A stretch of 64,000 nt of DNA from Bradyrhizobium sp. BRP22 (lineage in GTDB: Bacteria; Pseudomonadota; Alphaproteobacteria; Rhizobiales; Xanthobacteraceae), in contig NZ_JADYVX010000009.1 of the NCBI RefSeq assembly GCF_020194175.1, positions 124,001 through 188,000 on the forward strand, in the 5' to 3' direction. Below the pieces are notes generated by a model that was not told the DNA's origin, searched no databases, and worked only from the letters and a program-made list of their open reading frames with translations. This document shows positions 4,841-47,813 of this stretch, piece after piece. Position numbers and translations under genes: made by a program. Numbering within the stretch: the first letter of the stretch is position 1; each line of letters opens with the position of its first letter.

Positions 4841-5962
4841 ATGAATGTGCATCAATCCCTCGCGGCCTCACGGCCGGCGGAGGCCTTTCCGCCCATCGTG
4901 ACCGATGTCGTCGCCGAAGATGCGATGGTGCGGTTCGAGGCCGTCTCGAAGACCTATCCCGCCTATCGCGGCAAGCCGAGCGTGACGGCGCTCCAGGACA
5001 TCGACTTCGCCATTCCCCGCGGCGCGATCACCGGCGTGATCGGGCGCTCAGGGGCCGGCAAGTCCAGCCTGGTGCGGCTGATCAACGGGCTGGAGAAACC
5101 GACGACCGGCCGCGTGATCGTCGACGACAGCGACATTTCGGCGCTTTCCGGCAGCGCATTGCGACTGGCGCAACGCTCGATCGGCATGATCTTCCAGCAC
5201 TTCAATCTGCTGTCGTCGCGGACGGCGGCTGACAACATCGCCTTGCCGCTTGAAATCGCCGGCTGGCCGAAAGCCGAGATCGCCGCGCGCGTCTCGGAAC
5301 TGCTCGACCTCGTCGACATCGCCAACAAGCGCAACCGCTATCCGTCCGAACTCTCTGGCGGCCAGAAGCAACGCATCGGCATCGCGCGAGCGCTGGCGAC
5401 GCGGCCGAGCGTGCTGTTGTCTGATGAGGCGACCTCGGCGCTCGATCCGCAGACGACGCGCTCGATCCTCGACGTGCTCGCCAACATCAACCGCGAACTC
5501 GGCGTGACCATCATCCTGATCACCCACGAGATGTCGGTCGTGCGGCAGCTCGCCAAGGAGGTGATCGTGCTCGATGCCGGGCGCGTCGTCGAGCGTGGTC
5601 ACGTCGCCGACATCTTCACCCATCCGCAGCATGCGATCACCCAGAGCTTCCTCTCCGAGGTGCTCGGCGACGCGGTCCCGGTGTCGTTGTCGAGCCGCCT
5701 GCAACAGCAGGCTGCGCCCGGTGCCCAGGCCGTGATCCGGGTGCTCGTCCGCGGCGATGGCGGCGACCGGCTGGTGGCGCGCCTGTCGCGCGAGCTTGCG
5801 ATCGACGCGGCGCTGCTGTCGGCGCGGATCGACGAGATCGGCGGCCAGCAGGTCGGGTCACTGACGCTTGGCGTGCCCGGCGACGAGGCCGTGGTTGCGC
5901 GCGTGCTGTCCTTCCTCTCTCAACATCGGTTTTCCGCGGAGCGTCTCGGCTATGTCGCCTGA
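4841..5962 (+). CDS. metN: Methionine-type ABC transporter ATP-binding protein MetN
   Basis: ATPase of 373 residues for import of methionine or related sulfur compounds. Walker A GRSGAGKSS is at about 68-76, followed by SSRTAADNIALPLEIAGWP typical of MetN, signature ELSGGQKQRIGIARAL and Walker B LLSDEATSALDP. The last 90 residues (from about 285) form a NIL regulatory domain, which in MetN binds methionine and inhibits transport; this domain separates it from SsuB-type ATPases. The stop overlaps metI by 11 bases. The start is the ATG at 4841 (MNVHQSL) with AAGGA upstream; a longer frame from 4775 adds an unrelated tail. Confidence 0.9.
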   Translation: MNVHQSLAASRPAEAFPPIVTDVVAEDAMVRFEAVSKTYPAYRGKPSVTALQDIDFAIPRGAITGVIGRSGAGKSSLVRLINGLEKPTTGRVIVDDSDISALSGSALRLAQRSIGMIFQHFNLLSSRTAADNIALPLEIAGWPKAEIAARVSELLDLVDIANKRNRYPSELSGGQKQRIGIARALATRPSVLLSDEATSALDPQTTRSILDVLANINRELGVTIILITHEMSVVRQLAKEVIVLDAGRVVERGHVADIFTHPQHAITQSFLSEVLGDAVPVSLSSRLQQQAAPGAQAVIRVLVRGDGGDRLVARLSRELAIDAALLSARIDEIGGQQVGSLTLGVPGDEAVVARVLSFLSQHRFSAERLGYVA

Positions 5963-39436: not shown

Positions 39437-40213
39437 TCAGGCGTTCGCGCTGAGCCCGAGCCGGGCATAGATGCGCCGGGCATAGGCGCCGAATTCGTCG
39501 GTCGTCTTGATCGGCAGTGCGCGAGGGAAGGGCAATTCGATCGGGAAATATTCCGCCATCCGCGCCGGCCCCGCGGTGAGCACGGCGCAGTGGGAGCCCA
39601 GGAACACGGCTTCTTGGATGCTGTGGGTGACGAAGATGATGGTCTTGCCGCTCTCGCGCCAGATCCGGAGCATTTCGAGATTCATCTGCTCGCGTGTCAG
39701 CGCATCCAGAGCGCCGAACGGCTCGTCCATCAGGATCAGTTTGGGATCATGGATGAAGGCGCGCGCAATCGCGGTGCGCTGCTGCATGCCGCCGGAAAGC
39801 TGCTGCGGATATTTGTCCTCATAGCCGGCGAGGCCGACGAGTTTCAAGAGGTCGCGGGCGCGTGCGCGCGCGGCCTTCATCGGCAGGCCGACGATCTCGG
39901 CCGGCAGCAGCACGTTGTCCAGGATGGTGCGCCATTTGAGCAGCAGCGCCTGCTGGAACACCATGCCGATATCGCGTGCCGGATCGAACGGCGTCTTCGC
40001 GTTGCCGATCTTGATCGTGCCGCCATCGGCGCCGTGCAGGCCGGCAAGGATCTTCAGCACGGTGGTCTTGCCGCAGCCGGATGGTCCGACCAGCGCCACC
40101 AGTTCGCCCTCGGCGATATCCATGGTGACGTCGGAGACGGCGAGGAACTCGGCTCCCTTGGACCGATAGACCTTGCGGACATTGCGCAGGCTGATGAAAG
40201 GCTCGGCCGTCAT
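39437..40213 (-). CDS. NitT/TauT-family ABC transporter ATP-binding protein
   Basis: ATPase of 258 residues with Walker A GPSGCGKTT (about 43-51), signature LSGGMQQRTAIARA, Walker B LILMDEPFGALD and H-loop FVTHSIQEA. GMQQR in place of GQ.QR is usual for the NitT/TauT branch. Its ATG overlaps the TGA of the DHDPS-like gene (ATGA), so it is the last gene of the operon starting at 43908. It would power the permease encoded by the first gene. Confidence 0.88.
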   Translation of the reverse strand: MTAEPFISLRNVRKVYRSKGAEFLAVSDVTMDIAEGELVALVGPSGCGKTTVLKILAGLHGADGGTIKIGNAKTPFDPARDIGMVFQQALLLKWRTILDNVLLPAEIVGLPMKAARARARDLLKLVGLAGYEDKYPQQLSGGMQQRTAIARAFIHDPKLILMDEPFGALDALTREQMNLEMLRIWRESGKTIIFVTHSIQEAVFLGSHCAVLTAGPARMAEYFPIELPFPRALPIKTTDEFGAYARRIYARLGLSANA

Positions 40214-41265
40214 GCCAGCCATTTCTGCAGGTTCGCGGCGACGAAGGCGTCATCACTGAGATCGGCATGCTCGCGGCAGACGCGGTCGATTTCCTGCATC
40301 TGGCCCGGGCTCAGGCCCTCATTCGGATCGAGGCACCAGATGCCTTCCATCAAGCCCTGGCGGCGGAGGATCTCGTGACAGCCGGCGATGCAGCCGTGGA
40401 AATTGTTGGCGACGTCGAAGAACGCGCTGTTGCAATCGGTCACCCGAGCATCGAGCGCGAGCAGATTGGCAGGCACGCTATCCTTGTGGCGCGCGTCCCT
40501 GCACATCTCGAATTGCCTGATTGCCGTTTGCGTCCACACCGACCAGTGACCGAGCAGGCCGCCCTTGAAGTAAGTGCGGGTGGTGACGCCGTTCTCGCGC
40601 AGGTCGAACGGCAAAGCGAGGTCGAGCAGGATGTGGTCGTCATTGCCGGTATAGAGCGCGACGCGGTCGAGGGCACCAGCCGCGGCGACGCCGCGCAGCA
40701 CGTCGAGGGTGCGATAGCGGTTGAACGGCGCGATCTTGATCGCGATCACATTGTCGATCGCCGCGAAGCGCCGCCAGAAATCCGCGCTCAACACCACGCC
40801 GCCAACCGCCGGCTGCAAATAGAAGCCGACCAGCGGGATCTCGCGCGCGACCGCTTGGCAATGCGCGATGATGTCGTCCTCCGACGCAGCCTTCATCGCG
40901 GCGAGGCTGAGCAGGCCGGCGTGATAGCCGATATCGCGCGCGGTGCGCGCTTCCGAGATCGCCTGCTGCGTCGGGCCGGCGAGGCCTGCGACCATCGCCA
41001 GTGGCCGCGTCGTCCAGTTCGCCGCCGTCTCGGCGGCAAGCTCGAGTACGGGCCGATAAAGCCCGACCTCGCGGATCGCGAATTGCGTGGTGTGGACGCC
41101 GACCGCAAGGCCGCCGGCGCCGGCGTCGATATAATAGCGCGTCAGCGCGCGCTGATGCGTCTTGTCGAGCGTGCGATTGGCGTCGAGCGCGAGCGGGTGC
41201 GCGGGCAGCACGGTGCCGTCGGCGATCAGCTTGCGTATTTCGGATTTGATCTCGCTCTGGTGCAT
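40210..41265 (-). CDS. Dihydrodipicolinate synthase (DHDPS/NAL) family aldolase or lyase, divergent
   Basis: TIM-barrel protein of 351 residues, longer than DHDPS (about 290). The Schiff-base lysine is K177 in VIAIKIAPFNRY and the catalytic tyrosine position is Y149 in GFYLQP. The usual GTTGE substrate loop is replaced by GVHTTQFA (about 56-63), so the substrate is not the classical pyruvate plus aspartate semialdehyde pair. AGGA precedes the ATG at 41265. It sits between the GNAT and ATPase genes of a transport operon and probably cleaves or builds a 2-oxoacid from the imported compound. Confidence 0.8.
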   Translation of the reverse strand: MHQSEIKSEIRKLIADGTVLPAHPLALDANRTLDKTHQRALTRYYIDAGAGGLAVGVHTTQFAIREVGLYRPVLELAAETAANWTTRPLAMVAGLAGPTQQAISEARTARDIGYHAGLLSLAAMKAASEDDIIAHCQAVAREIPLVGFYLQPAVGGVVLSADFWRRFAAIDNVIAIKIAPFNRYRTLDVLRGVAAAGALDRVALYTGNDDHILLDLALPFDLRENGVTTRTYFKGGLLGHWSVWTQTAIRQFEMCRDARHKDSVPANLLALDARVTDCNSAFFDVANNFHGCIAGCHEILRRQGLMEGIWCLDPNEGLSPGQMQEIDRVCREHADLSDDAFVAANLQKWLA

Positions 41266-41273
41266 GGTCAATC

Positions 41274-42095
41274 CTATCCAAATTCCGGGCCGGCGACAGC
41301 GAAGGGAAGCTCCTCGCTTTGCGCCGTGGCGCGACCGAACCGCATGCGCTGGAACGGCCGCTCGATGTTCCAGCCGGCGCCGGTCAATCCGGCGATGAAT
41401 GGCTCCTGCGACGCGATCGCGTCGATCAGGAACGGGCCGCTTTCGGTTCGCCTGATTGCATCGACCAGCGCCAGAGCGTCCGCACCGCTGTCCGCGAACA
41501 ATGGCCCGATATGGCGCGCGATGCGGCCGTCGCGCACGAGCGCTATCGCGTTGCCGTGGGATAGAATGCGCGACTTCGAGCGCGCGCCGAATTCGGCGAG
41601 CAAGGCATTGCGCTCAAATCCCATGGCGCGCCGGTCGCGCGCGCTCAGTGCGCCGATATCGGAGGTCGCGAGCGTCGCGGGCGCCTCGTGCGTTGAATGT
41701 TCGAGCCGCAAGCGCCGAAGCTCCAATGTCGGTGTGAAGCCGAGTGGACCGTATACCGTGGCGCCCGCCGGCGTCGCGTCGAGCCAGGTGGTGAGCCCGC
41801 GCTGTCCTGCTGCGTCGAGACAGGCATCGACCAGCCGGGTCGCAATGCCGCGGCGGCGCCAGCGTTCGGTCACCAGCACCATGCTGATCCAGGCATTGCC
41901 GGCGGAATACGGCAGCAGCGCCGCGGTTGCGACGAGATGGGTTCCGTCGCGGACGCCGAACACGATGCCGTTGGTGAGGAAGAAGCGCCAGTCGGCTTCG
42001 TTCTGGTTCCAGCGCGCCTCGGTCGACAGCGCCAGGCCGGCGGCTGCGTCGTTGACGCCGAGTTCGACGATGGCGACGGGCTCAGTATCGGCCAT
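41274..42095 (-). CDS. GNAT-family N-acetyltransferase
   Basis: Protein of 273 residues. The N-terminal half is a GNAT domain with the acetyl-CoA loop ERWRRRGIATRLVDACLDAA (about 75-95, the R-R-G-I-A pattern) and a closing VYGPLGFTPT strand. The C-terminal half resembles a second, GNAT_acetyltran-like domain (IGPLFADSGADALALVDAI). The start is fixed by GAGG six bases before the ATG at 42095, giving a 14-base overlap with the upstream gene. It may acetylate an amino compound handled by the operon. Confidence 0.82.
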   Translation of the reverse strand: MADTEPVAIVELGVNDAAAGLALSTEARWNQNEADWRFFLTNGIVFGVRDGTHLVATAALLPYSAGNAWISMVLVTERWRRRGIATRLVDACLDAAGQRGLTTWLDATPAGATVYGPLGFTPTLELRRLRLEHSTHEAPATLATSDIGALSARDRRAMGFERNALLAEFGARSKSRILSHGNAIALVRDGRIARHIGPLFADSGADALALVDAIRRTESGPFLIDAIASQEPFIAGLTGAGWNIERPFQRMRFGRATAQSEELPFAVAGPEFG

Positions 42096-43119
42096 CGCGC
42101 ACCTCATATTTGGTCGGCTTGCCGAGGCTCGGCATCGAGCGCGCCACCCAGTCCGCAGTCCAGGCGATCAACTGCTCGGTGTCGACGACCGGCGGGCCAA
42201 ACAGGCTGACCGCCTGCGAGGTGTCGGTCAGCCACGCCGTCGGCTCTTCGTTGCCGACGATCACGGGCTCGCGGCCGAACCGCGCGCCGAACTTGGCGGC
42301 GAGATCGCGCACCGCAAGGATCTCGTGGCCGCTGACATTGATCGGCGAGGTCGGCACCGTGCAATGTGCAAGGCACCGCAGCGCCTGCGCGGCGGCGTCG
42401 CCCTGCCAGATGAAATTGACATGGCCGAGGCTGACGTCGATCGGCGTGCCCGAAAGCACCTTGGTCGCGATGTCGTGCAGCACGCCGTAGCGCATGTCGA
42501 TCGCGTAATTCAGGCGGAACAGGCGGCCGGGCGTTACGAACTTCTTCGAGAAATACTCGAACATGCGCTCGCGCCCGACGCAGGATTGGGCGTATTCGCC
42601 GGGCGGGTTCGGCGCCATGCTCTCGTCGGAGCCTTTGCCGTCGACCGGCACGAAGGGATAGACGCAGCCGGTCGAGAACGCGACGATCCGCGAGGTGGGG
42701 AAGGCCTGCGCGACCAGCGCGGGGACATGCGCATTCATCGCCCAGGTCAGCGACGGGTCGCCCTCGGCCCCGAATTTGCGGCCGGCCATGAAGATGATGT
42801 TGGGCGCCTTCGGCAGCGTCTTGATCGCGATCTCGTCCATGAGGTCGCAATTGATGGTCTCGATGCCGCGCTTCTCGAGCCAGCCCTTCACTGCAGGATC
42901 GCTGAAGCGGGCGACGCCGATGATGCGGCGATCCGGTGCGGCGGCCTTGGCGAGGCCGGCCAGCGTCGGTCCCATCTTGCCGGCGACGCCCAGGATCATG
43001 ATGTCGCCGTCGACCTTGCCGAGATCGTCGATCAAGGCCTGACTGGGCCTGCACAGCAACTCGTCGAGCGCTGCAATATCCGGGATCGTCTTCGGCAGGG
43101 TTTCGCGCGTGAGCAGCAT
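42082..43119 (-). CDS. NAD-dependent epimerase/dehydratase-like protein with changed catalytic lysine
   Basis: Extended-SDR Rossmann protein of 345 residues. The dinucleotide loop GVAGKMG (44-50) and FSTGCVYPF (148-156, serine and threonine of the active site) are typical. At the YxxxK position the sequence is Y176-AQS-C180, so the catalytic lysine is a cysteine (codon TGC). The protein may be a non-canonical dehydrogenase, an epimerase using another base, or a regulator. It lies 18 bases after the permease gene and overlaps the GNAT gene. Confidence 0.78.
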   Translation of the reverse strand: MLLTRETLPKTIPDIAALDELLCRPSQALIDDLGKVDGDIMILGVAGKMGPTLAGLAKAAAPDRRIIGVARFSDPAVKGWLEKRGIETINCDLMDEIAIKTLPKAPNIIFMAGRKFGAEGDPSLTWAMNAHVPALVAQAFPTSRIVAFSTGCVYPFVPVDGKGSDESMAPNPPGEYAQSCVGRERMFEYFSKKFVTPGRLFRLNYAIDMRYGVLHDIATKVLSGTPIDVSLGHVNFIWQGDAAAQALRCLAHCTVPTSPINVSGHEILAVRDLAAKFGARFGREPVIVGNEEPTAWLTDTSQAVSLFGPPVVDTEQLIAWTADWVARSMPSLGKPTKYEVRDGRY

Positions 43120-43137: not shown

Positions 43138-43908
43138 TTATTGCAGCCGGATGTCGGAGACCACGAACAGTCGTTCAAGTGCCAGCACCAGGCCATAAAG
43201 CCCGACGCCGAGCAGCGTCAGCAGCACGACCGCCATCACCATGGCTGGCATATCGAGCGAGGACTGCACCTGGATCATGAGATAGCCGAGGCCGCGCTCG
43301 GAGGCGATGAACTCTCCGACGATGGCGCCGGCAACCGCGAGAATGGCGCCGACCTTCATGCCCGAAAACACGTAGGGCAGCGATCCCGGCAACTGGATTT
43401 TCCGGAACAGCGTCCAGCGCGATCCGCGCAACGATTTGACGAGATCGAGCAGGTCGGGTTCCACCTCGCGCAGCCCGCGCGCAGTCGTCAGCAGGATCGG
43501 AAAGAAGCAGATGCTGAAGGCAATCAGGATGTTCGGAATGATGCCGTAGGAGAACCAGACGATGATCAGCGGCCCCAGCGCCACTTTCGGGATCATGTTC
43601 AGCGTCACGAACAGCGGCAGCAGCAACAGGCTCACCAGCGGCGACCAGCTGAAGATGACGGCGAGCGCGACACCGACCAGCGCGCCGAGGCAGAACCCGC
43701 CGAGGATCTCGGCCGCGGTGACCAGCAGGTTCGACAGCCAGGCATATTTGGCCGAAGCGAGCGTCGCGACGGTCGCGAGCGGCGAAGGCAGGATGAATTT
43801 CGGCACCTGGAACGCGTCGACCAGGACCTGCCAGAGCACGATCACGGCAAGATGCACGATCAGGATGATCGCGATGGACCGCCTGGATCGCCCGCCGTCA
43901 CCGAACAC
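43138..43908 (-). CDS. NitT/TauT-family ABC transporter permease
   Basis: Permease of 256 residues with six hydrophobic segments. The coupling loop is EVEPDLLDLVKSLRGSRWTLFRKIQLPGSLPYVF (split; EAA-like at about 150-170). Length and layout match SsuC/TauC/ThiX proteins. The GTG at 43908 has AAGGAG at six-base spacing; a TTG directly before it would be only three bases from that site. First gene of the operon permease, SDR-like, GNAT, DHDPS-like, ATPase. The divergent binding protein at 44775 is the likely partner. Confidence 0.87.
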   Translation of the reverse strand: MFGDGGRSRRSIAIILIVHLAVIVLWQVLVDAFQVPKFILPSPLATVATLASAKYAWLSNLLVTAAEILGGFCLGALVGVALAVIFSWSPLVSLLLLPLFVTLNMIPKVALGPLIIVWFSYGIIPNILIAFSICFFPILLTTARGLREVEPDLLDLVKSLRGSRWTLFRKIQLPGSLPYVFSGMKVGAILAVAGAIVGEFIASERGLGYLMIQVQSSLDMPAMVMAVVLLTLLGVGLYGLVLALERLFVVSDIRLQ

Positions 43909-43953
43909 CAATTGCTCCTTCGAAACCCCGCGGCACCCCGGCCGTCGGCTGTC

Positions 43954-43982
43954 AGCCTAGTCGGGTCGCATCAATCTTTCAA
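43954..43982 (-). promoter_or_regulatory. Putative promoter of the ABC-lyase operon
   Basis: On the minus strand, TTGAAA (43977-43982) and TAGGCT (43954-43959) are 17 bases apart, with the -10 box 46 bases before the permease start. The -35 box begins with the last four bases of the palindrome at 43979-43994, so the bound regulator would cover it. Confidence 0.5.
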
Positions 43983-43994
43983 CCATCTGGTTGA
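43979..43994. promoter_or_regulatory. Putative TetR operator O1
   Basis: TCAACCATCTGGTTGA has perfect 7-bp arms around two central bases. It lies between the tetR stop and the permease operon. It shares CAACCA and GTTGA with the element at 44678-44693 in the same register, as expected for two sites of one dimeric repressor. Confidence 0.6.
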
Positions 43995-44027
43995 TTGTGG
44001 GGAACCGATGGACGGCGGTGGCAGCGG

Positions 44028-44675
44028 CTATGGCCGGAGCGACTGCATCACCAGATCGGTCACGTGCCGCCGCCGGGCTCGCCGCGCGGCCGTGCTCGAC
44101 AGGTCCTTGCCGAAGATCGCCGACAATGTCGGCGTGTTGGAGAAGAAGAAATAGCCGAGCGCCGCGATCGAGATATACAGGTGGACCGGATCGATGCCGC
44201 GCCGGAACGCGCCGGCGCGCACGCCTTCATTCAGGATCTTCGAGACCATGCTGACCAGCGGCGAGTGCATGGCCTCCAGCCGGCGGGAGCCGCGGACATG
44301 CCGGGCGCCGCCGCGGTTCTCGTCGTTCAGGAGCACGATGAAGTCGGGATGGGCCGCCAGGTGATCGAACGACGCCTCGATCAGCTTCTTGATCGCCTGC
44401 TCCGGCGGCAGCCCCTCCAGGTTGAGCTTGCGCTCCTGCTCGCGGATTTCCTCATAGACCCATTCGAGCACGGCGAGGTAGAGCGCGTCCTTGTCCCCGA
44501 AATAATGGTAGACGAGCTGCTTGTTGACGCCGGCCCTGGCCGCGATCTCGTCGACCCTGGCGCCGGCGAGCCCGTTCTGAGCGAATTCGCGCCGCGCCGC
44601 GGTCAGGAGTTTCTGTTGCGTGGCGACGGGGTCGCGCCGCTGCGGCTTTGTGTCGTCGGATCGTCTCTTCAGCAT
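44028..44675 (-). CDS. TetR-family transcriptional regulator
   Basis: Repressor of 215 residues. The helix-turn-helix at about 30-70 reads VDEIAARAGVNKQLVYHYFGDKDALYLAVLEW (broken here at HYFG), a standard TetR signature. The C-terminal domain has an RutR-like look (DFIVLLNDENRGGARHVRG). It stands between the operon it probably controls and the divergent binding-protein gene. Start at the ATG 44675; upstream frame overlaps the operator. The ligand is presumably the imported compound or a product. Confidence 0.87.
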   Translation of the reverse strand: MLKRRSDDTKPQRRDPVATQQKLLTAARREFAQNGLAGARVDEIAARAGVNKQLVYHYFGDKDALYLAVLEWVYEEIREQERKLNLEGLPPEQAIKKLIEASFDHLAAHPDFIVLLNDENRGGARHVRGSRRLEAMHSPLVSMVSKILNEGVRAGAFRRGIDPVHLYISIAALGYFFFSNTPTLSAIFGKDLSSTAARRARRRHVTDLVMQSLRP

Positions 44676-44677
44676 TT

Positions 44678-44693
44678 CCAACCAAACAGTTGA
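44678..44693. promoter_or_regulatory. Putative TetR operator O2
   Basis: CCAACCAAACAGTTGA lies two bases upstream of the tetR start codon and overlaps the -35 box (44690-44695) of the divergent promoter. It matches O1 at 11 of 16 positions, including both half-site cores. A repressor bound here would block both its own gene and the binding-protein gene. Confidence 0.55.
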
Positions 44694-44718
44694 CAATTGC
44701 ACTTGTCCCTTGTTGCAT
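44690..44718 (+). promoter_or_regulatory. Putative promoter of the NMT1-type binding-protein gene
   Basis: TTGACA (44690-44695) is a consensus -35 box, followed after 17 bases by TTGCAT (44713-44718) as a weak -10 box, 57 bases before the start codon. The -35 begins with the last four bases of operator O2, the same arrangement as at the operon promoter. Confidence 0.55.
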
Positions 44719-44774
44719 TGGTAACGTCACAAACGAGCAGCGACAAGGCCGGGTTGCGCACAAGGAGAGTTGCG

Positions 44775-45785
44775 ATGAAGGGTTCGAAGCTTGCAGCCCT
44801 GGCGTTTGCCTTTGCGCTGGCCGCGTCAGTTGCGCCGGCGCGCGCCGCCGAATCCGTCAATTTGATCCTGAACTGGACCCCGACGGCGGATCATTCGCCG
44901 TTCTATTACGCCAAGGCGCAGGGCTGGTACGAGAAGGCCGGCATCGATCTCACGATCGAGACCGGCAAGGGCTCCGGCGTCTCGTCGCTGAAGGTCGGCT
45001 CCGGCGGCTCGCCGTTCGGCATTGCCGACCTCGCGACCATGCTGGTGGCAAAGAGCAAGGGCGCCGATGTGGTGGCGCTGATGAGCATCTACGCCAACAC
45101 CGGGCAGACCTTCTATTGGCTGAAGAGCTATGGCGTGAACAGCGTGAAGGACTTTCCCGGTCACAAGATCGGCAATCCGCCCGGCGACGCCTCGCGCGTG
45201 ATGTGGCCGGCCTTCGCCAAGGCCGCCGGCATCGCGCCGGACGCCGTGAGTTTCGTCAATGTCGGCCCGACTGCGAAGATAGCGGCGCTGAAGAGCCATA
45301 CGGTCGATATCATCAGCGATTTCTACAACGAGCACGATCTCAAGGTGATCGAGTTCGGCGCCGACCTCGGCTATGTCAACTGGAAGGACATCGGGCTCAA
45401 TCCGTACGGCAATTCGCTGATCGTCAACGGCGCGTTCCTTCAGAAGAATCCGAAGCTGGCGGAGGAATTCGTGCGGGTCACGCAGAAGGCCTACGCCGCC
45501 TGCGTCGCTGACGTCGCCCCCTGCCTGAAGGCGCTGCTCGACCAGGTCTCCGGCCTCGACCGGGAGAACCAGGAGCGGCAGTGGGAGCGCATCAAGTTCC
45601 TGATGACGGACGAATTTACCACGACCAGGGCGCTCGGCTGGATCGACGCCGAGCGGATGAAGAAGGATTATGACCTGGTGCACACGTACCTGGGCATGGA
45701 AAAGCCGTTCGACGTGAGCACGGCGTTTTCCACCAAGATGCTGGATACCGGCATCAAGATGGATGCGAGCAAGGTGAAGAAGTAG
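44775..45785 (+). CDS. NitT/TauT (NMT1/THI5-like) substrate-binding protein
   Basis: Periplasmic binding protein of 336 residues with a Sec signal (LAALAFAFALAASVAPARAAE). The NMT1-type start VNLILNWTPTADHSPFYYAKAQGWYEKAGIDLTIE is diagnostic (seen in thiamine-precursor and related binding proteins). GGSPFGIADLATMLVAKSKG and IGNPPGDASRVMWPAFAKAAG follow. AAGGAGAG lies four bases before the ATG. It should feed the permease and ATPase of the operon transcribed in the opposite direction. The WTP..DHSPFYYA motif hints at a pyrimidine-like or aromatic ligand, but this is a guess. Confidence 0.88.
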   Translation: MKGSKLAALAFAFALAASVAPARAAESVNLILNWTPTADHSPFYYAKAQGWYEKAGIDLTIETGKGSGVSSLKVGSGGSPFGIADLATMLVAKSKGADVVALMSIYANTGQTFYWLKSYGVNSVKDFPGHKIGNPPGDASRVMWPAFAKAAGIAPDAVSFVNVGPTAKIAALKSHTVDIISDFYNEHDLKVIEFGADLGYVNWKDIGLNPYGNSLIVNGAFLQKNPKLAEEFVRVTQKAYAACVADVAPCLKALLDQVSGLDRENQERQWERIKFLMTDEFTTTRALGWIDAERMKKDYDLVHTYLGMEKPFDVSTAFSTKMLDTGIKMDASKVKK

Positions 45786-45878
45786 CGCGGGCTGCAGAAC
45801 GCATTTGACGCCCGAAGCCGCACGCTCATAAATCCCTCTTCACAGCCGGACCGAACCGTCGGGCAGGAGGGACCAGAG

Positions 45879-47813
45879 ATGACCGAGACAATCGCCGGCG
45901 AAGCTTCCAAGGACGCCTCGCCCTCCGTGGTCGCGCAACAGGCGGCGATGCTGGACGCGCTGCCATTCTACGACACCGCCGATTTCGACGACGCCGCGCG
46001 CGGCTTCCTCGGCACCATCGACAACGCGCAAATCACCACCGCGCAAGGCAGGGTGGTCTGGAGCCTTGAGCCCTATCAGTTCCTGGCTGCGGAAGATGCC
46101 CCGCCCACCGTCAATCCGAGCCTGTGGCGGCAATCGCGACTGAATATGCATCACGGCCTGTTCGAGGTGGTGCCCGGGGTCTACCAGGTGCGCGGCCTCG
46201 ATATCGCCAACATGACGCTGATCGAGGGTGACAGCGGCGTGATCGTGGTGGACACCCTCACATCGATCGAGGGCGCCAGCGCCGCGATGGAGCTCTACTT
46301 CAGGCATCGCGGCAGGCGTCCGGTCGTGGCCGTCATCTTCACGCATACCCATACCGATCATTGGGGCGGGGTCCGCGGGGTGCTCGATGACGAGACATTG
46401 GCGAGCCGCGAGGTGCCGATCATCGCGCCCGACCTGTTCATGGAGCACGCGGTTTCCGAGAACATCATCGCTGGCCCCGCGATGCTGCGGCGGGCGCAGT
46501 ATCAGTTCGGGCCCTTCCTGGCGAAGGGGCCGCGAGGCCAGGTGGATTGCGGCCTCGGCAAGTCGATGGCAGCGGGATCGGTGGCGCTGCTGCGGCCGAC
46601 CGACCTGATCCTCGCCACCGGAGATACGCGCACCATCGACGGCGTCGAATTCGAATTCCAGATGGCGCCGAACAGCGAGGCACCGGCGGAGATGCACTTC
46701 TACCTGCCGCGCTACAAGCTGCTGAACCTCGCGGAAAACTGCACCCATAATTTCCACAATCTGCTGCCGTTCCGCGGCGCGGATGTGCGCGATGCGCTGG
46801 CGTGGTCGAAATATCTCGGCGAGGCACTCAGGATGTGGGGCGGCAAGGCAGAGGCGATGTGCGGCCAGCATCATTGGCCGGTGTGGGGGCGGGAGCGGAT
46901 CGACACCATGATCCGCCAGCAGCGCGATCTCTACAAGTTCGCGCATGACCAGACCGTCCGCCTGATGAACCATGGGCTCACCGCGAGCGAAATCGCCGAG
47001 ACCATTCGTCTGCCGAAAAGTCTTGAGGGCGCCTGGCATGGGCGCGGCTATTACGGCCACATCAGGCACAATGTGAAGGCGATCTACCAGAAATATCTCG
47101 GCTGGTACGACGCCAACCCCGTCAATCTCGATCCGCTGCCGCCAACCGAGTCCGGCAGGAAATATGTCGAGTATATGGGCGGCGCGGACGCGATCCTGGA
47201 GCGGGCGCGCAAGGATTTTGCCAACGGCGAATTCCGCTTTGTCGCGCAGGTGGTAAGCCACCTGGTGTTCGCCGAGCCGGATAATGCTGCGGCTCGCGCG
47301 CTGCTCGCCGATACGTTCGAGCAGCTCGGCTATGCCGCGGAAAGCGCGACCTGGCGCAACAGCTATCTGTTCGGCGCGCAGGAATTACGGCAGGGTATGC
47401 CAAAGGCGCCGGCACGACCGGCGATGCCGCGCGAGACGCTTGCCGCGCTCCGCACCGAGCAGCTCTGGGACGTGCTCGGCATTCGCCTCAACGGTCCAAA
47501 GGCCGAGGGCAAGCGCATCGTGTTGAACTGGACGTTCACTGACACCAACGAGACCTTCATCCTCAATTTGGAGAATTGGGCATTGACCTGCGCCGCCGAC
47601 GCACAGGCCGACGACGCCGATGCGGCATTCACGCTGCCGCGCAGCACGCTCGACGAGGTCATCGCCAAATTGACGACGTTTCCGGAAGCCGTCGCCGGCG
47701 GCAGGATCAGCGTCAGCGGCAACGCGATGCGGCTTGCCGAACTGATGATGCTGATGGATGAGTTTCCGCGGATGTTCGAGATCGTCGAGCCGAAGCGGAC
47801 GACGGTAAGTTGA
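45879..47813 (+). CDS. Alkyl/aryl-sulfatase, metallo-beta-lactamase fold (SdsA1-type)
   Basis: Zinc sulfatase of 644 residues. The metal motif THTHTDHWGG is at about 155-164, with further ligands likely in AENCTHNFHNL and GQHHWPVWGRERID. A helical dimerisation domain (about 380-520) and a C-terminal SCP2-like domain (about 530-640) complete the SdsA1 layout. Unlike secreted SdsA1, no signal peptide is visible, so the enzyme is probably cytoplasmic and acts on imported sulfate esters. It lies 93 bases after the binding-protein gene on the same strand and may share its promoter. Confidence 0.88.
   Translation: MTETIAGEASKDASPSVVAQQAAMLDALPFYDTADFDDAARGFLGTIDNAQITTAQGRVVWSLEPYQFLAAEDAPPTVNPSLWRQSRLNMHHGLFEVVPGVYQVRGLDIANMTLIEGDSGVIVVDTLTSIEGASAAMELYFRHRGRRPVVAVIFTHTHTDHWGGVRGVLDDETLASREVPIIAPDLFMEHAVSENIIAGPAMLRRAQYQFGPFLAKGPRGQVDCGLGKSMAAGSVALLRPTDLILATGDTRTIDGVEFEFQMAPNSEAPAEMHFYLPRYKLLNLAENCTHNFHNLLPFRGADVRDALAWSKYLGEALRMWGGKAEAMCGQHHWPVWGRERIDTMIRQQRDLYKFAHDQTVRLMNHGLTASEIAETIRLPKSLEGAWHGRGYYGHIRHNVKAIYQKYLGWYDANPVNLDPLPPTESGRKYVEYMGGADAILERARKDFANGEFRFVAQVVSHLVFAEPDNAAARALLADTFEQLGYAAESATWRNSYLFGAQELRQGMPKAPARPAMPRETLAALRTEQLWDVLGIRLNGPKAEGKRIVLNWTFTDTNETFILNLENWALTCAADAQADDADAAFTLPRSTLDEVIAKLTTFPEAVAGGRISVSGNAMRLAELMMLMDEFPRMFEIVEPKRTTVS

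Follow-up and report, generated by a model that had tools for sequence, protein, structure and literature searches.

The window, the whole 64,000-nucleotide stretch analyzed here, carries a gene for a TetR-family regulator (tetR, 44028 to 44675, minus strand; PF00440 and PF17938) flanked by two palindromes and two divergent transcription units. The leftward unit, also on the minus strand, is an operon that begins with a gene for an ABC permease (43138 to 43911; BPD_transp_1, PF00528; TTG or GTG start) and continues with genes for an NAD-dependent epimerase/dehydratase family protein (42082 to 43119; PF01370), a GNAT acetyltransferase (41274 to 42107; PF00583), a protein of the DHDPS/N-acetylneuraminate-lyase superfamily, termed the lyase (40210 to 41271; PF00701, 35.8 bits), and an ABC ATP-binding protein (39437 to 40222; PF00005). 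The rightward unit, on the plus strand, begins with a gene for a periplasmic NMT1/SsuA-like binding protein (sbp, 44775 to 45785; PF09084), and its neighbor 93 bp further on encodes an alkylsulfatase of the MBL fold (45879 to 47813; PF14863). No NCBIfam model reached its cut-off with the DHDPS-like protein. All 15 of the DHDPS-like proteins compared share an IK pair (its lysine being K179 in locus L126), and this lysine is presumably the Schiff-base residue, as family knowledge suggests.

Conservation was assessed across the genus, in the window's own genome and those of 88 relatives; of these 89 genomes, 62 contain a tetR orthologue with at least 82% identity. The gene order, with sbp divergent from tetR and followed by the permease, epimerase, GNAT, DHDPS-like and ATPase genes, is found in 61 of the 62 loci; the exception (L091) is a contig that ends at tetR.

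Operator 1 (TCAACCATCTGGTTGA, 43979 to 43994) is a perfect 16-bp dyad, TCAACCA-NN-TGGTTGA, whose final TTGA opens the −35 box of a predicted leftward promoter on the minus strand (43954 to 43982), with TTGAAA at 43982 to 43977, a spacer of 17 nt and TAGGCT at 43959 to 43954. Every one of the 62 genomes with a tetR orthologue has operator 1, exactly in 58 and with a single mismatch in 4 (L045, L062, L063 and L082). In genome G035, where tetR runs into a contig end, an exact operator 1 is found on another contig together with the end of tetR (L116). The pattern TTGAWN-17-TANNNT accompanies the operator in 61 of 61 loci, and the −10 box matches TATAAT at three or four of its six bases across the same-genus loci. 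The distance from operator 1 to the permease start is 74 to 97 nt in 61 loci, including nine in which the operator lies 103 to 199 nt from tetR. Because the distance to the permease is steady while that to tetR varies, operator 1 belongs to the operon promoter and not to the tetR end. In L031 to L033, L045 and L063, the stretch from tetR to the permease gene contains inverted-repeat elements of the GTCATTGCGAG...CGCAATGAC type, and L040 and L048 carry a different repeat; in several relatives such elements are located on the tetR side of operator 1 and leave operator and promoter intact.

Operator 2 (CCAACCAAACAGTTGA, 44678 to 44693) is an imperfect dyad lying 2 nt from the tetR ATG, and its terminal TTGA begins a predicted rightward promoter (44690 to 44718, plus strand) made up of TTGACA at 44690 to 44695, 17 nt and TTGCAT at 44713 to 44718. 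The operator pattern (YCAACCARNYAGTTGACA / YCAACCARNYAGTTGA) occurs in all 62 same-genus loci, with CAACCA and AGTTGACAA invariant throughout, and TTGACA is separated from TTGCAT by 17 nt in 59 loci and by 16 nt in 3. Spacer bases between the promoter boxes vary among the same-genus loci. Operator 2 differs from the perfect dyad at three positions in the window, and at two or three in each of the 62 loci, so that the pattern by itself gives no significance, which is provided by conservation. These persistent departures could mean that operator 1 is the real site, and that operator 2 is conserved mainly as a −35 box, as the tetR start and perhaps as the target of another regulator, TetR binding there being weak or absent; a nearly invariant block (GTTGCATTGGTA) around and past the rightward −10 box hints at such an extra constraint. 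This alternative is unlikely, as CAACCA, which is part of neither the −35 box nor the tetR codons, is unchanged in all 62 loci, and a dyad on the tetR/sbp side is present in outgroup loci as well (e.g., L128, L131, L132 and L139), in some with the same AACT half. The preferred reading is that both palindromes are operators of the TetR protein.

The palindromes, all four promoter boxes and the intervening tetR gene had been described in a first-pass annotation and are found exactly where it placed them. Its central proposal, that matched operators overlap the −35 boxes of the two promoters flanking tetR, is supported by the comparison, and the conservation of both sites in related genomes, which it had named as a check, is seen. 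Both −10 boxes of the window match TATAAT at only three of six bases, and a generic sigma-70 scan of 43900 to 46000 found no promoter, so it is conservation that underpins the promoter claims. The spacing fits the RpoD-like consensus of B. japonicum, whose motifs include TTG-N(16-18)-TATA (PMC4842269).

Within the 8.36-Mb genome, TCAACCANNTGGTTGA has one exact copy, which is operator 1, and the sole match with one mismatch falls within an open reading frame, apparently that of an ABC permease. The looser YCAACCANNNNGTTGA occurs at four places, two of them at this locus, compared with two places for a reversed control pattern; when up to two mismatches are allowed, the numbers are 33 and 20. 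Four of the two-mismatch matches (L117 to L120) were examined as additional regulon members and none was convincing. In L118 (G000:C133:29186-29201), GCAACCATTTGGTTGC is flanked by TTGACA and TATTGT in a promoter-like sequence, which looks like the promoter of another regulator. Across the genus, 58 of the 62 genomes that have the tetR orthologue contain the exact dyad, as does 1 of the 27 that lack it (L112), a co-occurrence that is partly trivial given that the locus includes the site.

A second copy of the dyad is found elsewhere in 5 of the 62 orthologue-containing genomes. Among 14 loci from various genomes with dyad copies away from the tetR locus, 4 (L104, L108, L111 and L112) have TCAACCANNTGGTTGA at or next to the start codons of genes that, by eye, are ArsR-like, near position 5001 in each; L108 and L111 contain a second, similar dyad 40 to 41 bp from the first. 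The dyad is thus not unique to this regulator type, and the palindrome may be used by another regulator family too. Its presence at ArsR-like start codons in other genomes would suit the idea that both palindromes of the window are bound by a different regulator, such as an ArsR-type protein or a TetR paralogue with 49% identity. That idea is very improbable: both sites accompany this tetR throughout the genus and recur beside related tetR genes in other families, whereas the paralogue loci (L092 to L094) have no CAAC-N6-GTTG in 12.6 kb each, and the paralogues in L092 and L093 carry the other recognition helix, NKRM. The paralogue with 49% identity (L092, G000:C173:244395-244997) is encoded on the same contig at a distance of approximately 76 kb, close to a further ABC importer whose permease, binding protein and ATPase are distant matches.

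To follow the system beyond the genus, the DHDPS-like protein was searched in 385 genomes of the class, of which 35 had a match, 33 of them outside the genus. With two order-level loci (L095 and L097), these 33 made up an outgroup of 35 loci; 26 contain a tetR homologue, which is absent from the stretch in the remaining 9. When 256 half-sites were combined with 13 gaps (0 to 12) near tetR in these 26 loci, AACC-N4-GGTT ranked first (19 loci), followed by TAAC-N6 and GTAA-N8 (17 each), which are parts of the same dyad, and then by GCGC-N4 (15). By a score and threshold set in this analysis, the dyad reached at least 15.5 near tetR in 24 of the 26 loci, the exceptions being L154 and L155. A wider contig search added 80 loci, of which 23 are of the same-genus type. 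Among the other 57, a tetR homologue is present in 29 and absent from the stretch in 28, and all 17 loci with a strict dyad belong to the 29. Betaproteobacterial loci are included (Hydrogenophaga L169, Corticibacter L210, Ottowia L217, Xenophilus L219 and Eoetvoesiella L227), and Ramlibacter loci possess the DHDPS-like gene with neither tetR nor dyad. A related regulon recurs across Alpha- and Betaproteobacteria, and it does so in two forms.

The two forms differ in the outer bases of the operator and in the recognition helix of the regulator. Operators with outer TC..GA (TCAAC..GTTGA) accompany the helix NKQ, as in the window (NKQLVYHYF), and those with GT..AC (GTAAC..GTTAC) accompany NKR, in 37 of 37 rows scored under a strict dyad rule, which was set once the exceptions to a looser TCAA-N8-TTGA pattern had been noted and which removes them. 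Under the looser pattern, L155 (helix R) is discordant, L124 and L125 have an additional GTAAGG..CGTTAC, and L215, whose helix was not read, has GTAAAAAATTACTTAC. For the 14 loci that lack a strict dyad, a 10- or 11-of-12 match to the form predicted by the helix is present in 7, and no convincing relaxed dyad was found in the other 7. An initial set comprised 18 TC and 16 GT proteins, two groups that are fully separated by residues 53 to 55 (Q, L, V versus R, M, L or I) and equally well by residues 23, 28, 106 and 212. In a larger set of 56 rows, in which the window stands for its genus and loci with sbp >80% identical were left out, residue 53 (Q or R) is the only one of positions 53 to 55 that continues to separate them; L203 combines NKRLIY with a GT operator, and L169 combines NKQLIY with a TC operator.

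A tree of 50 TetR proteins was calculated with the helix columns removed, near-duplicates (L226, L156, L124 and L125) dropped by name and two proteins with <150 aligned residues (L152 and L157) omitted. Both traits are available for 37 of its rows (18 Q/TC and 19 R/GT) and 13 lack one. Each trait changes once on the tree, and the Q/TC rows form one strongly supported clade (100/99). The match between helix and operator thus corresponds to a single switch, to which no statistic can be attached. The agreement nevertheless argues, at the level of sequence, that these proteins read these sites.

Operator position differs between the two forms too. The counts cover operators that lie no more than 330 nt from the start of a cluster gene, and the −10 box was taken as the best of three spacings; because of this choice, and because they ignore common descent, binomial values for the counts are given no weight. 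Of the TC operators before permease or epimerase genes (17 rows, window included), 13 have TA...T exactly 17 nt further on; in L210 the distance is 16 nt, one of the three L217 rows lacks the box, and L132 and L216 have TTGAC 29 nt upstream of the operator instead. GT operators before cluster genes other than tetR have TTGAC 27 to 38 nt upstream in 17 of 18 rows (all but L228), which places them over or just after the −10 box. Read towards tetR, none of six GT rows has TTGAC at that distance, so autoregulation is without promoter-box backing there. The three TC rows at the binding-protein gene outside the genus (L123, L132 and L161) lack a −10 box at 16 to 18 nt. The earlier claim that the operators occupy the same point on both promoters consequently holds inside the genus and fails outside it: sharing of the −35 box on both sides is a property of the genus, and promoter cover is the wider rule. 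A further candidate rule, that the weaker operator is on the binding-protein side, is true in the genus and sometimes reversed elsewhere (L135, L140 and L123), and it is not general.

These positions bear on the direction of control. The weak −10 boxes of the window, each with half of the consensus bases, would suit an activated promoter, at which the TetR protein recruits polymerase from an operator at the −35 box. There is very little probability of this, since the operators either overlap the −35 box (most TC rows) or follow TTGAC (most GT rows), and both placements should block polymerase; TetR-family regulators are, moreover, mostly repressors. An evolutionary scenario is offered tentatively and with slightly less than even confidence, in which one regulator lineage recoded operator and helix together (from GTAAC..GTTAC and NKR to TCAAC..GTTGA and NKQ) and the new outer TTGA then served as a −35 box, shifting repression onto the −35 region from a position just past it. 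L132 and L216, with a TC operator and TTGAC still 29 nt upstream, would be intermediates in such a recoding. By eye, L127 and L129 resemble these two loci.

The locus is very probably controlled by a local TetR-type repressor of the SsuA/NMT1-like ABC importer, of the DHDPS-like lyase operon and of itself, as judged from sequence comparison. A TetR dimer would bind the 16-bp dyad at operators 1 and 2. Because each operator supplies the opening TTGA of a −35 box, the bound repressor would keep RNA polymerase off, barring it from the permease-epimerase-GNAT-lyase-ATPase operon and from the binding-protein gene. Operator 2, so close to the tetR start, should repress tetR too; the comparison supports a site placed such that it would give the autoregulation predicted in the first-pass annotation. 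A ligand would release TetR from the DNA, the inducer probably being the imported substrate or a breakdown product. The regulon would consist of two or three local promoters and is probably autoregulated.

The alkylsulfatase, previously regarded as a probable member of the regulon, is not supported as one and was set aside, since its gene lies within 500 bp of sbp in just 7 of 62 same-genus loci and no operator match with up to two mismatches occurs elsewhere on the window's contig. It is found anywhere in the fetched stretch (approximately 6 kb on each side for most loci) in 21 of the 62. Among 23 same-genus-type loci with wider flanks, some of which are probably repeat genomes, it is present in 9 and within 500 bp in 3. 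RNA folding of the sbp-alkylsulfatase gap gave a z value of −1.82 and no clear terminator; in the window, the alkylsulfatase gene could be transcribed by read-through across these 93 bp from the binding-protein promoter.

RutR, the pyrimidine-responsive regulator, is the nearest named relative of this TetR protein, with the equivalog cut-off missed by far. The protein matches the PF00440 helix-turn-helix (60.8 bits, residues 23 to 69) and PF17938 (TetR_C_29, 138.9 bits), and its best-scoring named model is TIGR03613 (68.7 bits against a cut-off of 368; NF011584, 58.3 against 230). RutR structures are also the first function-named PDB matches (4x1e, 2.1e-13; 3loc, 1.7e-12; 6z1b, 1.9e-12), preceded by four chains without a function name, led by 3npi (3.2e-20). 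The RutR operator, TTGACCA-NN-TGGTCAA, has the same 16-bp layout and the same ACCA-NN-TGGT core as the dyad described here and differs in the outer bases. RutR controls pyrimidine-degradation (rut) genes; the conserved neighbors of the present tetR are importer, epimerase, GNAT and DHDPS-like genes. The importer shares the PF09084 binding protein with SsuA/TauA-type (NMT1/THI5) importers but, unlike them, is linked to DHDPS-like, epimerase and GNAT genes. The best models are SsuA_fam for the binding protein, SaoP and then SsuC for the permease, and a taurine importer for the ATPase, and none reached its cut-off (TIGR01728, 60.1 against 163.5; SsuC, 79.6 against 347; taurine ATPase, 211.1 against 357).

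Typical TetR repressors are encoded between their targets, have operators over promoters and control a local regulon that includes their own gene. The arrangement described here is real, well conserved and ordinary in kind, differing from the typical system in that two separate operators flank tetR, each lending TTGA to a −35 box, and in that a second operator/helix form exists in other lineages. What is new is that this unnamed regulon recurs widely, with linked changes in the helix, in the operator and in the position of the latter. An importer-lyase cluster of Alpha- and Betaproteobacteria thereby gains a predicted regulator, operator and promoters, and the inducer offers a handle on the importer's substrate. 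Two operator/helix forms in one regulon provide a clean case in which to ask how repressor specificity can change with survival of the regulon.

Among the literature matches listed, as titles and abstract openings and with some search terms ill-suited, none concerned this cluster, operator or regulator, and matches to TCAACCA/TGGTTGA in the retrieved part of PMC8070244 are primers. Blr7984 of Bradyrhizobium diazoefficiens USDA110, a TetR regulator with a mutant study, belongs to the genus of many of the close loci; its most up-regulated neighbor is a glutathione S-transferase gene (PMC5017801), and from the neighbors given in the excerpt, which are the sole basis of this judgment, it is a different locus.

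Further features lie around operator 2 and the tetR start, which was taken in this analysis as the ATG at 44675, a column invariant in 62 of 62 loci. The block CTTGTTGCATTGGTA (44709 to 44723), which surrounds the −10 hexamer, varies hardly at all among the 62 relatives, beyond the need of a −10 box, and a conserved GCGACAAG (44740 to 44747) follows approximately 17 nt past it; these blocks are possibly the tetR promoter on the opposite strand or the site of another regulator. The tetR ATG nearly touches operator 2 and has no clear Shine-Dalgarno sequence ahead of it (44675 to 44702), and the tetR frame is open through the operator, with TTG at 44696 and GTG at 44702. It is possible that the tetR message is leaderless or that its start lies within operator 2; leaderless-type starts are reported for B. 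japonicum in PMC4842269.
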